DNA of 64,000 bases from Lentilactobacillus otakiensis DSM 19908 = JCM 15040 (GTDB lineage: Bacteria > Bacillota > Bacilli > Lactobacillales > Lactobacillaceae): the NCBI RefSeq assembly GCF_001434145.1, contig NZ_AZED01000014.1, forward strand, positions 62,001 through 126,000, read 5' to 3'. The notes below the pieces were generated by a model. It was not told the origin of the DNA and did not search any database. It was given only the letters and a program-made list of their open reading frames with translations. Every line of letters starts with the position of its first letter. Position 1 is the first letter of the stretch. This document shows, one piece after another, positions 30,339-63,182 of this stretch. A program made the translations under genes and the position numbers.

Positions 30339-30620
30339 TAGTTTGATGATAGAAAAATTACAAGATGAGTAGACAATTAGAGGTTGTCAAGAGAGCCCGG
30401 ATGGTGTGAAAGGGTGAATTAAATTTGTCGAAGATGGTCTTGATTAAAAATGTATCGGTGAGCTAATGTAAGCCGATAATGGGTAACGACCATTATTTCG
30501 TTGAGTATAAACATACTCATGAGGTTATTATTGAAAAATAATAACGAATAAAGGTGGTACCGCGAGCTTTTCGTCCTTTATAAGTCGTTTACGATTTATA
30601 AAAGGATGAAAAGCTTTTTT
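30339..30620 (+). ncRNA. T-box leader, methionine specific
   Basis: The T-box sequence AGGTGGTACCGCG is at 30552-30564. Its UGGU bulge matches a tRNA with discriminator A. Stem I is seen with GACAA/TTGTC above the specifier loop and a 3' strand GAAG-ATG-GTC. The likely specifier is ATG (30434-30436), fitting methionine. The terminator (30565-30620) is a long stem ending AAGCTTTTTT. Uncharged tRNA-Met stabilises the antiterminator, so metNIQ is expressed when methionine is short. Confidence 0.92.
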
Positions 30621-52095: not shown

Positions 52096-52329
52096 TTAAA
52101 TTAAAGTGTTGAGCAAGAGAGTAACCGGTCAGTTGATTTCAGAAAGAAAATCATTGCTGTGAGATTTTTATCACTGATTGTGTGAAGGTAGCTTGTGAGC
52201 TGCTCGTTCGAATCTGAGAGCGAGTCGGTATTATCAGACCGTTATTATGATATTAAGTGGGGCTTTTAGCCCAATTTAGGTGGTACCGCGAACACTTCGT
52301 CCTAATTTATAGGATGGAGTGTTTTTTTG
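52096..52329 (+). ncRNA. T-box leader, valine specific
   Basis: T-box sequence AGGTGGTACCGCG at 52278-52290 (UGGU bulge, discriminator A). The specifier strand GAAG-GTA-GC gives GTA (Val) at 52188-52190. The terminator (52292-52329) pairs ACACTTCGTCC with GGATGGAGTGT. Expression of valS rises when tRNA-Val is uncharged. Confidence 0.93.
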
Positions 52330-59073: not shown

Positions 59074-59757
59074 ATGCAAGATGCAGCCGTTTTAAAGGGC
59101 ACAAAGGATGGCTATGAAATCATTCTGGATGAAAATGCCAATCTAAAGGATATTTTCTCCTCACTTCGAAAGCTTCTGGACAATTTGAAAACCCAGACAG
59201 CTTCAACCAATCCACAAACCATCGCTTTTGATATTTATACTGGTATGCGCTTATGGCCAGCAGATGATCGATCAGAACTTGAAAAGATTTTTTCCGATTA
59301 TTCATACTTTTCAGTTCACAAGATTACTTCTGATGTGATCACCAAGGAAGAATCCAATCGGATCATTGAACAATCAAGTGTCCATATCGTTGATAAGGTG
59401 ATTCGAAATGGTCAAGAAGAGCATATTCAAGGTGATGTGTTATTTCTCGGAACGGTTCATGAAGGCGGCAAGTTATTTGTCGGTGGTAACATTTTCGTCC
59501 TTGGCAATGTTGAGGGAATCATTCAAGCTGGTGCGCCTGATCTTGAGGACAAGATGATTATTGGGGATGTACATAATGCTCAGCAGGTTCGGATCGGTGA
59601 GCAATTTGAAATTCTGGCAGATAGCAAACATGAGATGAACAGTGGCACAGTGATCTATGTCAATGATCTACATGTGTTGGACTATGGCAAAGTTGAGGAT
59701 CTCAAACAGATTAATCCCAAGTTTTACAATCAGATAGGAGGAGTCATCAATGGGTAA
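59074..59757 (+). CDS. minC: Septum site-determining protein MinC
   Basis: 227 residues. N-terminal FtsZ-binding domain (about 1-105) and C-terminal beta-helix with GDVLFLGTVHEGGKLFVGGN and IFVLGNVEGII. It inhibits FtsZ polymerisation away from midcell together with MinD. Overlaps minD by 8 bp. Confidence 0.94.
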   Translation: MQDAAVLKGTKDGYEIILDENANLKDIFSSLRKLLDNLKTQTASTNPQTIAFDIYTGMRLWPADDRSELEKIFSDYSYFSVHKITSDVITKEESNRIIEQSSVHIVDKVIRNGQEEHIQGDVLFLGTVHEGGKLFVGGNIFVLGNVEGIIQAGAPDLEDKMIIGDVHNAQQVRIGEQFEILADSKHEMNSGTVIYVNDLHVLDYGKVEDLKQINPKFYNQIGGVING

Positions 59758-60556
59758 GGCTTACGTTATAACATCAGGTAAAGGGGGAGTTGGTAAGACA
59801 ACTTCGTCAGCTAATATTGGGACTGCACTTGCCATGCTTGGTAAGAAAGTGTGTCTCCTCGATCTTGATATTGGTCTGCGTAACTTGGACGTTGTGTTGG
59901 GACTCGACAACCGGATCATGTACGATATTGTTGACGTTGCAGCCGGTCGGGCAAAACTTAGCCAAGCGCTTGTTAAGGATAAGCGGTTTGATGATTTACT
60001 TTATCTATTACCAGCAGCTCAAAATACTGACAAGACCGCTTTAAACGAAGACCAGGTCCGCGAGATCGTTGATGAATTGAAGCCTGACTTTGACTTCATT
60101 CTGATTGATTGTCCAGCTGGAATTGAACAAGGATTTATGAACGCCATTGCTGGTGCTGACAGTGCGATTATTGTCACCACACCAGAAATTTCGGCTGTTC
60201 GTGATGCCGATCGCGTGGTTGGATTGCTGGAACAACATCCACTCCAAGAACAACCACATTTAATTATTAACCGAATTCGTCAGCATATGATGAAGGATGG
60301 ATCGGTCATGGATGTCGATGAAATTACGCATCATCTAGGTGTCGAATTGCTGGGGATTGTGTTCGATGACGATGCTGTCATCACGACTTCCAACAACGGT
60401 GAGCCGGTGGTGCTTCAAGCGGAAAATCCTGCTGGTCAGGGTTATCGCGACATTGCTCGTCGGTTAGTTGGCGAATCGGTTCCTTTGATGGAAATCAAGG
60501 ATGAACAGCAGCCATCATTCTGGCAAAAAGTAACCCATTGGTTCCGTAAAGGATAA
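59750..60556 (+). CDS. minD: Septum site-determining ATPase MinD
   Basis: 268 residues. Deviant Walker A SGKGGVGKTT, and LLDLDIGLRNLD. A C-terminal amphipathic tail (PSFWQKVTHWFRKG) would bind the membrane. RBS GGAGG inside minC. No minE is present, as in many Firmicutes. Confidence 0.96.
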   Translation: MGKAYVITSGKGGVGKTTSSANIGTALAMLGKKVCLLDLDIGLRNLDVVLGLDNRIMYDIVDVAAGRAKLSQALVKDKRFDDLLYLLPAAQNTDKTALNEDQVREIVDELKPDFDFILIDCPAGIEQGFMNAIAGADSAIIVTTPEISAVRDADRVVGLLEQHPLQEQPHLIINRIRQHMMKDGSVMDVDEITHHLGVELLGIVFDDDAVITTSNNGEPVVLQAENPAGQGYRDIARRLVGESVPLMEIKDEQQPSFWQKVTHWFRKG

Positions 60557-60562
60557 AAAGCC

Positions 60563-60591
60563 TTGACGTGAAGCCAAATTAATATTATTAT
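60563..60591 (+). promoter_or_regulatory. Promoter of the tandem T-box transcript
   Basis: TTGACG (60563-60568), 17 bp, TATTAT (60586-60591). Confidence 0.75.
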
Positions 60592-60597
60592 AAATTT

Positions 60598-60880
60598 AAC
60601 TTAATTAAAGATTTTTAAAGACGTTGATCAGAACCGGTTATTCATTCAAATTACAGAGAGCTCATCAAGGTGGAAGTTGGGCATTTGATGATTAATCGTC
60701 ACATCTGTGAGTCATTTTTCTGAATTTAGTAGGAAAAAGCGGTAAGCACGTTATTGCTGAAGTTTAGTGTTATCGAATACTAAACCCATTGAGGCTTTTC
60801 ATGTGAGTGGAGAGCAAATCAGAGGTGGAACCGCGAAATAGTCGTCCTCTTAAGTCATTTATGGCTTAAGAGGATTTTTT
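60598..60880 (+). ncRNA. T-box leader, first (complete) copy
   Basis: Full T-box with T-box sequence AGGTGGAACCGCG at 60823-60835 and terminator GTCCTCTTAAG.. at 60844-60880. The UGGA bulge calls for a tRNA with discriminator U, which in Firmicutes suggests Cys or Gly, unlike the UGGU of the other two leaders here. Upper Stem I pairs CGGTTATTC with GATTAATCG. The specifier is not settled: CAC (60700-60702) or ATC (60703-60705) fits by position, TGT (60706-60708) by discriminator. It controls a polar amino acid ABC transporter. Confidence 0.88.
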
Positions 60881-60900
60881 ATTTCTAAGAGGTAATTCTA

Positions 60901-61000
60901 AACTTCATGAGGCGGCGGGTGTGAACCTGTTGCGAATTGAGGTGGAACCGCGAAAACCATCGTCCTCTTGAGTAGTTAGAGTACTCAAGGGGATTTTTTT
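60901..61000 (+). ncRNA. Second T-box antiterminator/terminator without Stem I
   Basis: A second AGGTGGAACCGCG lies at 60940-60952, 117 nt after the first, with its own terminator (60962-61000) of stem GTCCTCTTGAGTA/TACTCAAGGGGAT and seven T. Only about 60 nt separate it from the first terminator, which leaves no room for Stem I. It looks like a partial duplication of the 3' half. Confidence 0.8.
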
Positions 61001-61015
61001 ATGGAGGGATGTCAA

Positions 61016-61660
61016 ATGATTCAATATATTCAAGAAATTTTACCTGCTTTATTGTCCGGAACCAAGATGACTTTATCAATTTTCTTCTGGACACTGATTT
61101 GTTCGATTCCATTAGGTGCTTTAGTCGGATTAGGACTGATTCAAAAGTTCAAACCGCTGACTTGGCTGTTGAACTTTTACGTTTGGATCATGCGTGGAAC
61201 GCCATTGTTACTGCAATTAATCTTTGTCTTTTACGGCCTGCCAATTATTCATATTGTGTTCCAACGTTATGATGCTGCGATGTTTGCCTTTATTTTGAAT
61301 TACACGGCTTACTTCGGTGAGATTTTTCGGGGCGGCTTCCAGTCAGTTCCAAAAGGTCAGTTTGAAAGTGCCAAGGTGTTGCGGCTGAGTTATGGTCAAA
61401 CAATTCGCAAGATTGTGATTCCCCAAGTTTTCAAGATTGTCTTACCCTCAATTGGGAATGAGGTCATTAACTTGGTAAAGGATTCATCCTTGGTATACGT
61501 TATCGGTTTAGGTGATCTGCTAAGAGCCGGAAATGTTGCCACTGCACGTGATGTGACGCTGCTTCCGTTGATCTTAGTTGGAATTATTTACCTTGCACTG
61601 ACGGCGGTATGTACGATTGTGTTGAAACTGATTGAAAAACGCGAAAATGTTTGGCGATAG
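61016..61660 (+). CDS. Polar amino acid ABC transporter permease
   Basis: 214 residues from ATG 61016 with RBS GGAGGG. HisMQ/GlnP-type permease with about five transmembrane helices and the EAA-like loop QFESAKVLRLSYGQTIRKIVIPQ. First gene of a three-gene importer unit. Cystine or another polar amino acid is the likely cargo. Confidence 0.92.
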   Translation: MIQYIQEILPALLSGTKMTLSIFFWTLICSIPLGALVGLGLIQKFKPLTWLLNFYVWIMRGTPLLLQLIFVFYGLPIIHIVFQRYDAAMFAFILNYTAYFGEIFRGGFQSVPKGQFESAKVLRLSYGQTIRKIVIPQVFKIVLPSIGNEVINLVKDSSLVYVIGLGDLLRAGNVATARDVTLLPLILVGIIYLALTAVCTIVLKLIEKRENVWR

Positions 61661-61672
61661 GAGGGGATTACA

Positions 61673-62308
61673 ATGTTAGAAATTAGGAATTTAACGAAAC
61701 GTTTTGGCAGTCGGACCATTATTGATGATCTGTCAATGACCGTCAAAGACAACGAAATTGTGGCAATTGTTGGTCCTTCTGGAGCTGGTAAAACGACACT
61801 TTTGAGATGTATCACTGGGCTGGAATCCGTTAATACCGGCGAATTTTACTGGAATGGGACTCAGTTTGATCCAACTAATACCACACAAAAAGATACCATC
61901 ATCGGGGTTGTCTTTCAGGATTATCAGCTTTTCCCTAATTTAACCGTTCTGGGAAATATTACCTTGGCACCAACGATGGTTAAAAAAGAACCAATGACTG
62001 AAGTCAAAAAATACGCTCGTGAATTATTGAGTCGTTTGGGATTGGAAGGTAAGGAAGATCTTTACCCCTACCAACTTTCCGGTGGCCAAAAGCAACGGGT
62101 AGCGATTGTTCGGGCACTTGCGATGCGACCAAAGATTCTTTGTTATGACGAACCAACTTCTGCCCTTGATCCCGCATTACGAGACGAAGTTGCCCAAATT
62201 ATTCTTGACCTCAAGAAACAGGAAATGACTCAGATTGTCGTCACTCATGATATGGACTTTGCCAAAAATGTTGCTGACGAAATCCAACAGGTTAAACAAA
62301 TTCAGTAG
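61673..62308 (+). CDS. Polar amino acid ABC transporter ATP-binding protein
   Basis: 211 residues, shorter than the usual 240. Walker A GPSGAGKTT, signature LSGGQKQR, Walker B ILCYDEPTSALD. The C-terminal tail ends soon after the H-loop (VVTHDMDFAKNVAD), so the terminal segment normally found is reduced. RBS AGGAGGGG. Confidence 0.9.
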   Translation: MLEIRNLTKRFGSRTIIDDLSMTVKDNEIVAIVGPSGAGKTTLLRCITGLESVNTGEFYWNGTQFDPTNTTQKDTIIGVVFQDYQLFPNLTVLGNITLAPTMVKKEPMTEVKKYARELLSRLGLEGKEDLYPYQLSGGQKQRVAIVRALAMRPKILCYDEPTSALDPALRDEVAQIILDLKKQEMTQIVVTHDMDFAKNVADEIQQVKQIQ

Positions 62309-62318
62309 GAGGGGTAAA

Positions 62319-63182
62319 ATGTTAAAATCATTTAAACGTTTATTATTGATTGCCAGTCTCCTACTGGTAACAATTGGCCTTTCGGGATGCGGCGTGCGGT
62401 ACGTCAGCCGTCAGGGCTCTCAAGAAAATCCTGACACATGGTCGACTGTTTCTAAACAAAAAAAGATTGTCGTCGGTCTGGATGACAGTTTTGTGCCAAT
62501 GGGTTTTCAAACCAAAAGCGGTAAAATTGTCGGGTATGATGTTGACCTTGCTCGAGCAGTATTCAAGCAATATGGTATTAAAGTCGATTTCCAGCCAATT
62601 GACTGGTCCATGAACGTCACTGAGTTGAGAAATGGCACTATCGATTTGATTTGGAATGGTTTTTCAGTTAATCCCCAAAGAGCTAAGAAAATTACGTTCA
62701 GCGAACCTTATCTCATTAACGACCAAGTGTTGGTTTCTAAAAAGAGTCAGCATATTAAGAGTTTTGCCGACATGAAGGGGAAGGTCGCCGGCGTTCAAAA
62801 TGGTTCGGCCGGTGCGATGGATATTGATAACCAGCCAAAGCTCCTTAAAGATCGGATTAAGGGCCATGAACCGATTTTGTATGATACATTTACCGATGCA
62901 TTTATCGATTTGAATGCCAATCGAATTCAGGGGCTCTTAATTGATAGCATTTATGCCGGTTATTATTTGGAGCATCAATCCAACCAATCAAGCTTTACTT
63001 CGGTTCCAAGTGAATTTCCTAAGGAGCAATATGGTGTTGGTATGCGAAAAGGTGACACCGTTTTGAAGAAAAAGATTGACCAAGGTTTAAACCGATTGGC
63101 TAAAAATGGTGAACTTCACAAAATTAACATGAAGTGGTTTGGAACCGATCGAGATAGTCCTTTAATGAAAAATGCTAAATAA
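62319..63182 (+). CDS. Amino acid-binding lipoprotein
   Basis: 287 residues from ATG 62319 (RBS TAGGAGGGG). Lipobox GLSGCG near residue 20-26. Family 3 solute-binding fold with GYDVDLARAVFKQYGI and the signature GTIDLIWNGFSVNPQRAKK. Delivers substrate to the ABC importer. Ends the unit. Confidence 0.92.
   Translation: MLKSFKRLLLIASLLLVTIGLSGCGVRYVSRQGSQENPDTWSTVSKQKKIVVGLDDSFVPMGFQTKSGKIVGYDVDLARAVFKQYGIKVDFQPIDWSMNVTELRNGTIDLIWNGFSVNPQRAKKITFSEPYLINDQVLVSKKSQHIKSFADMKGKVAGVQNGSAGAMDIDNQPKLLKDRIKGHEPILYDTFTDAFIDLNANRIQGLLIDSIYAGYYLEHQSNQSSFTSVPSEFPKEQYGVGMRKGDTVLKKKIDQGLNRLAKNGELHKINMKWFGTDRDSPLMKNAK

Follow-up and report, generated by a model that had tools for sequence, protein, structure and literature searches.

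A conserved T-box leader with one tRNA-His sensor and two gates before a transporter operon of Lentilactobacillus otakiensis, with a docking strand apparently common to both gates

Complete tandem T-boxes, of which thrZ is an example, are known. T-boxes of the transcriptional class (RF00230) consist of a Stem I with a specifier, an F-box region, a Stem III, a UGGN bulge, and an antiterminator/terminator switch. The leader described here, which precedes an amino-acid uptake operon of Lentilactobacillus otakiensis DSM 19908 = JCM 15040, has all of these elements and shares with complete tandems the presence of two antiterminator/terminator gates in series. It differs from the canonical T-box in that a second discriminator and terminator come without a sensor of their own. 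Partially tandem T-boxes, in which a half copy likewise lacks Stem I, are treated in section 18 of a 2020 review (PMC7583486); its available text gives their mode of action as unknown and supplies no anatomy, mechanism, or shared strand. Tandem T-boxes have also been reported for histidine transporter leaders of five Enterococcus species, most other regions having a single T-box (PMC9413887). The available text of that study names tandems only in those five species; the half copies of Lactobacillaceae described below seem to have gone unnoticed. The operon order and the specifier of our leader are like those of the hisYZ*X histidine T-boxes of Lactobacillales covered there. Unequal numbers of sensors and switches are also found in the tandem glycine riboswitch, which, in the available text of PMC9481103, is the mirror image of our case, with two sensors and one expression platform.

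The window, that is, the whole 64,000-nucleotide stretch of DNA that was analyzed (contig NZ_AZED01000014.1, positions 62,001 to 126,000), contains the leader near its end. As listed in Table 1, a full-length match to RF00230 (model positions 1-219) was detected with a score of 89.8 bits (E 2.4e-20), 3.2 bits below the gathering score of 93. A second match, at 60899-60967, covered only model positions 151-216 of 219 (24.9 bits, E 0.0013), and because of this restriction we regard the second copy as devoid of Stem I. A sequence-only reading of the window had already noted that this copy cannot hold a specifier loop, which agrees with the extent of the match, and had located two AGGTGGAACCGCG elements (60823-60835 and 60940-60952), which were recovered here with an intrinsic terminator after each. 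Two intrinsic terminators, at 60844-60875 and 60962-60994, were found in the leader, compared with 0.3 expected in shuffled sequences, and ~60 nt separate terminator 1 from the second motif. The half copy spans 60908-61000 and includes a Stem III, an antiterminator, and a terminator of its own. A complete tandem would have a Stem I and a specifier of its own in the second copy; here, a second antiterminator/terminator occurs without a second Stem I, so that the leader is a member of the partially tandem type. Among the 41 RF00230 matches in the genome, the second copy was the sole partial one. Two further T-box leaders in the window (L019 at 30349-30581 and L001 at 52100-52307) are single; both have UGGU in the bulge, and the first has a linker hairpin.

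Table 1. Features of the leader and the downstream operon (positions in the window)
Feature	Position	Strand	Basis or remark
minD-like gene	59750-60556		upstream of leader
Promoter-like site TTGACG-17-TATTAT	60563-60591	+	behind minD
Complete T-box leader including gate 1	60615-60852	+	RF00230
Specifier CAC (His), then purine A	60700-60702	+	sequence
CGUUA, taken to be the F-box of Stem IIA/B	60749-60753	+	sequence
Strand A, linker-hairpin 5' arm and loop, assigned to both gates	60758-60773	+	
Strand C, linker-hairpin 3' arm, partner of strand A in gate 1	60776-60785	+	predicted fold
Gate 1: UGAG, Stem III (60794-60815), antiterminator 1 (60822-60849), bulge UGGAACC	60790-60849	+	
Terminator 1	60844-60880	+	intrinsic terminator search
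Strand B, candidate partner of strand A in gate 2	60892-60907	+	
Gate 2 (half T-box): UGAG, Stem III (60912-60933), antiterminator 2 (60939-60967)	60908-60967	+	
Terminator 2	60962-61000	+	intrinsic terminator search, covariation
hisY-like ABC permease	61016-61660	+	start picked for GGAGG at 61003-61007; listed open frame from 61001
ABC ATPase (hisZ*-like)	61673-62308	+	
Substrate-binding protein SBP_bac_3 (family 3, hisX-like)	62319-63182	+	start by eye after purine-rich stretch; listed frame from 62235

The promoter-like site behind the minD-like gene is weak by itself, as one such pattern was found and 1.3 are expected by chance. Downstream of the leader, a permease, an ATPase, and a family-3 substrate-binding protein follow one another in the order of hisYZ*X, described in PMC9413887 as a T-box-regulated histidine transporter of Lactobacillales. 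No NCBIfam equivalog cut-off was reached among the matches listed (for the ATPase, 25 of 193), and the substrate is for this reason deduced from the CAC specifier and the gene order of PMC9413887, according to which it is probably histidine. Over the matched segment, the permease is 100% identical to that of L. parakefiri and L. parabuchneri.

Conservation of the leader was analyzed by a permease scan of one genome per species (84,980 species), which confirmed 379 relatives. We retained the best 80, all of them Lactobacillaceae, which represent the nearest relatives rather than a random sample; according to their record titles, they come from genera including Lentilactobacillus, Levilactobacillus, Companilactobacillus, Pediococcus, Lactiplantibacillus, Limosilactobacillus, and Lactobacillus. 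In the window and in all 80 of these loci (best 80 of 379), the permease gene is preceded by two T-box motifs at a distance of 101-131 nt from each other, and at least five consecutive T residues follow both gates in all 81 leaders. In 33 representative leaders of the 81, 97.0% of the cells of gate-2 Stem III and antiterminator were paired, with 138 double changes; for gate-2 Stem III and terminator, 89.9% of cells were paired, with 191 double changes. Neither value was reached by any shuffle (0/500). The conservation of the second copy in close relatives, which the sequence-only reading had named as a check, was thus confirmed, and its suggestion that this copy might be a decayed duplicate was contradicted; chance was likewise rejected as an explanation. 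The architecture does resemble a partial duplication, as expected if the 3' half had been duplicated and the copy were decayed or neutral; however, retention of the half copy in every orthologous locus and covariation in every gate-2 helix counted leave this explanation a negligible chance. Judged from sequence comparison, the leader is a conserved, covarying T-box with one sensor and two gates. In gate 2, UGGNACA replaces the bulge sequence UGGNACC in 10 of the 81 leaders, all titled Levilactobacillus (L068, L072, L074, L075, L077, L078, L080, L081, L082, and L084).

Strand A belongs to the linker hairpin, which separates the F-box from Stem III of gate 1, and strand B, which opens the half copy, is complementary to both the arm and the loop of strand A. 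In the window, UGAAGUUUAG (60758-60767) can pair without mismatch with CUAAACUUCA (60898-60907), and five further pairs are possible past one mismatch. We calculated A-B duplex energies for 81 leaders with 75 distinct A/B combinations (L056 was parsed separately), using genus groups taken from the record titles; 10 records with no more specific title than Lactobacillus sp. or Lactobacillaceae bacterium were assigned by resemblance or as "other." The mean energy was -14.8 kcal/mol with the leader's own strand compared with -6.2 with strand B of other genera. The former value was reached in 0/2000 permutations, the true assignment was the best among all 5040 permutations of the seven genus groups, and the own strand B surpassed every strand B from other genera in 58 of the 75 combinations. 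Furthermore, when 14 columns and 58 distinct rows were compared in a fixed register, 86.7% of the cells were paired with 213 double changes, and either value was reached in 0/1000 shuffles, while slid registers gave 31-48% paired cells. Two measures were unsupportive: the number of pairs with a double change was reached by 174 of 1000 shuffles, and that of further pair types by 654 of 1000.

A duplication of gate 1 is the probable origin of gate 2, and the A-B match could therefore be an inherited by-product, in which strand B descends from strand C, the strand that pairs with strand A anyway. The positions of A in the 5' arm are in line with such descent, as they match even strand B of other genera at 78.2%. 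However, apical-loop positions of A matched B in 206 of 222 cases (92.8%) compared with 38.9% (maximum 46.8%) for B of other genera (62 distinct leaders), and positions of A in the 3' arm of the gate-1 hairpin matched in 77 of 87 cases (88.5%) compared with 30.0% for other genera (60 distinct leaders). Descent from C gives neither of these matches, and we consider the by-product explanation very improbable. When all unpaired positions of A were counted, the match was 215 of 231 (93.1%) compared with 42.4% (maximum 50.6%) for other genera (60 distinct leaders). Because loop positions of A that are unpaired in the gate-1 hairpin also match B, strand B appears to be more than a copy of C, and the matched loop could serve as an entry point for strand exchange. 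The assignment of strand A to both gates is well supported by these complementarity patterns.

On this basis, we consider it reasonably probable that a single Stem I/tRNA-His platform serves two gates in series by partner exchange of the docking helix. Stem I would read tRNA-His once through the CAC specifier, and strand A would first pair with strand C, thereby docking gate 1 to the sensor. Uncharged tRNA-His would stabilize antiterminator 1 and let the polymerase pass terminator 1. Once gate 2 has emerged, strand B would invade from the hairpin loop and displace strand C, and the A-B pairing would bring gate 2 to the Stem I/tRNA platform already used by gate 1; passage of terminator 2 would then require a second recognition of the free NCCA end. 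By checking one tRNA twice in series, the leader would make readthrough less leaky, a form of proofreading. From the arrangement of the strands, we infer an exchange during transcription, a second use of one tRNA, and a benefit for regulation, and the tRNA itself may be handed over from gate to gate. Of the three options in the sequence-only reading (the others being a decoy and a decayed duplicate), the second gate that needs the same uncharged tRNA without codon reading is supported in a modified form: gate 2 has no specifier of its own but carries a strand with which it could dock on the platform of gate 1. No account of a shared strand was found in the T-box literature searched, including the available text of PMC7583486, PMC12452182, PMC2494555, PMC9481103, PMC7778990, PMC9413887, and PMC3766115; earlier descriptions of half copies are possible. 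A shared, exchangeable strand provides a concrete mechanism that is testable by point and compensatory changes, may explain how a half copy works without a specifier, and indicates to annotators where missed second gates may lie. If true, it would provide a naturally occurring example of a single RNA sensor that proofreads serially.

As a control, histidine T-boxes were collected by a pattern search in 246 genomes of the order, which gave 51 sites in 50 genomes. The seven sites from the same family were all half tandems; most genomes of this family escape the strict pattern. Of the 51 sites, 49 were examined; the window and L048, which are half tandems, make up the remaining two. Seven of the 49 leaders were single-gate, L177 among them at a contig end. 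In 27 leaders, the gates were within 160 nt, and the mean A-B energy was -14.0 (range -22.1 to -5.6); the exception among the close-spaced leaders was L178, with only -5.6 (-10.6 when another stretch was compared). Two leaders (L179 and L180) with a spacing of 256-259 nt contain an insertion in which no Stem I was recognized, and the shared strand is kept in them, with an A-B energy of -14.6. In the other 13 (L187-L193, L204-L208, and L212), which are histidine transporter leaders, the second gate was 273-541 nt away and the mean A-B energy was -4.6 (range -7.8 to -2.2). These distant second gates were preceded by a local hairpin (-7.2 compared with -1.9 in the close-spaced leaders). In the five distant-gate leaders that we read (L187, L191, L192, L204, and L206), the second gate comes with a Stem I of its own, as in complete tandems, whereas in our leader Stem I and one helix strand are predicted to be shared.

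These comparisons bear on the explanation that gate 2 is an independent half sensor: any free uncharged tRNA would be bound in trans through its acceptor end, with no codon being read, and strand B would merely melt the gate-1 hairpin. Gate 2 does possess a complete Stem III, antiterminator, and terminator without a specifier. However, a strand B matched to the loop of the gate-1 hairpin would then be needless, and distant, complete second T-boxes should not lack the A-B match, yet they do. In addition, a tRNA held by nothing but its acceptor end should be bound weakly and unspecifically. We regard an independent half sensor as improbable.

Strand A was also compared with the same downstream stretch in single T-boxes of the genome, of which 25 of 29 could be parsed. 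The mean energy was -7.4 and the best -13.7, while the 81 half tandems gave a mean of -18.7 with -11.8 as the weakest value, so that the ranges overlap. The linker hairpin was rejected as a marker of half tandems, since it is also present in some single T-boxes of the genome (by eye, L019, L024, and L025) and in single histidine leaders. Its retention in single-gate histidine leaders implies that the hairpin has some other role too. A hairpin like GGUAUCGG..CC.GUACC lies between the F-box and Stem III in many T-boxes (L024, L025, and L248-L276), single ones included, and is not a separate element of RF00230.

Folding energies, which leave out the tRNA, tertiary docking, and kinetics, gave a predicted A-B probability above 0.5 in 71 of the 81 leaders when both gates were transcribed; the pairing is most stable in Lactiplantibacillus and Levilactobacillus. 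The window's leader was among the other 10, with a Boltzmann probability of 0.005 for A-B compared with 0.60 for the local hairpin; forcing A-B costs 2.4-2.8 kcal/mol, the unexchanged hairpin being favored. In this fold, strand B can alternatively pair with the antiterminator strand of gate 2, a pairing that seems not to be kept in other genera (by eye only). The A-B pairing might be a reset or lock that acts once gate 1 has been passed, with strand B drawing off strand A to dismantle the gate-1 complex or holding gate 2 off, and with terminator 2 acting as a damper instead of checking the tRNA a second time. The dominance of A-B without ligand in most leaders and the alternative pairing of strand B in the window would both suit such a role. 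By contrast, gate 2 retains the helices and the UGGN bulge for tRNA binding, and distant second gates fill the same position with their own hairpin, which suggests that the helix is a normal component of a functional discriminator. A reset or lock is in our judgment unlikely, albeit with a chance that deserves consideration, and we retain the docking of both gates on one platform as the preferred reading.

The specifier CAC (His) followed by a purine was identified in all 81 leaders, in 75 by regular expression and in 6 by eye. The tRNA-His of the genome (L228, from 734), located through RF00005 and ARAGORN, starts with GGCGGTAT and ends with ATACCGCC. Its acceptor stem has 8 bp, in which C73 is paired with G-1 (numbered by eye from U8, A14, and the T arm); ARAGORN, with its generic 7-bp stem model, places the end (808) one base later, with U as the last base. 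The sequence-only reading was correct that both copies have UGGA, as opposed to UGGU in the other two leaders of the window, but the U73 tRNA (Cys or Gly) that it predicted from UGGA is rejected by the CAC specifier and by a tRNA-His with C73. Because C73 pairs with G-1, the N of UGGN does not report U73 here, and a histidine exception in which this N is free is allowed in the available text of PMC7778990. Across the 81 leaders, UGG is present in the bulges of both gates, while N was A in 61, U in 18, G in 1, and C in 1 at gate 1, and A in 44, C in 25, U in 10, and G in 2 at gate 2.

A strict two-motif pattern was also searched in samples of the class, family f11, and the phylum, which overlap. 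Half-copy candidates were found in 11 of 398 class genomes (including the own genome and one coding repeat), in 16 of 41 genomes of family f11, and in 33 of 398 phylum-sample genomes (the own genome included); the earlier remark that a half copy is unusual was thus too strong. The coding repeat, L153 (G129), was rejected as a T-box because the pattern matched a repetitive, apparently coding stretch. Of the 17 loci in family f11, 14 have the specifier context GAAGUUCAC, corresponding to Phe, and gate 2 apparently has no 5' arm for Stem III but matches that of gate 1. For the Phe-type leaders, the match energy was -16.7 with the own strand compared with -12.0 with other leaders and -8.5 with mononucleotide shuffles, a difference reached in 0/5000 permutations; the own strand ranked first in only 3 of the 17 leaders.

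Across the 29 phylum-sample loci other than the own one, gate 2 matches the linker hairpin, whose sequence is often GGUAUCGG..CC.GUACC. Long stretches gave -33.5 compared with -26.6 (26 of 29 parsed; 0/5000 permutations), and the hairpin alone -19.0 compared with -12.1 (22 of 29 parsed; 0/5000 permutations), with the own strand first in 7 of 22. Without alignment, loop positions matched in 79 of 108 cases (73%) compared with 49.8% (maximum 67.6%; 22 of 29 parsed). In a fixed register, where 15 of 29 were parsed and several were misanchored, the loop match of 51 of 98 (52.0%) compared with 39.2% (maximum 53.1%) was within the control range. As far as complementarity can tell, the shared-strand design recurs in unrelated half tandems. 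That half T-boxes across Bacillota form a single class of riboswitch with one sensor and two gates, in which the platform is handed over by loop-initiated strand exchange and the same tRNA is proofread twice, is a tentative proposal to which we assign slightly less than an even chance. In half tandems of the Phe type, the N of UGGN agreed between the gates in 15 of 16 loci compared with 15.0 expected, which is uninformative; in the non-His half tandems of the phylum sample, for which this base is expected to be relevant, it agreed in 25 of 26 compared with 18.5 expected.
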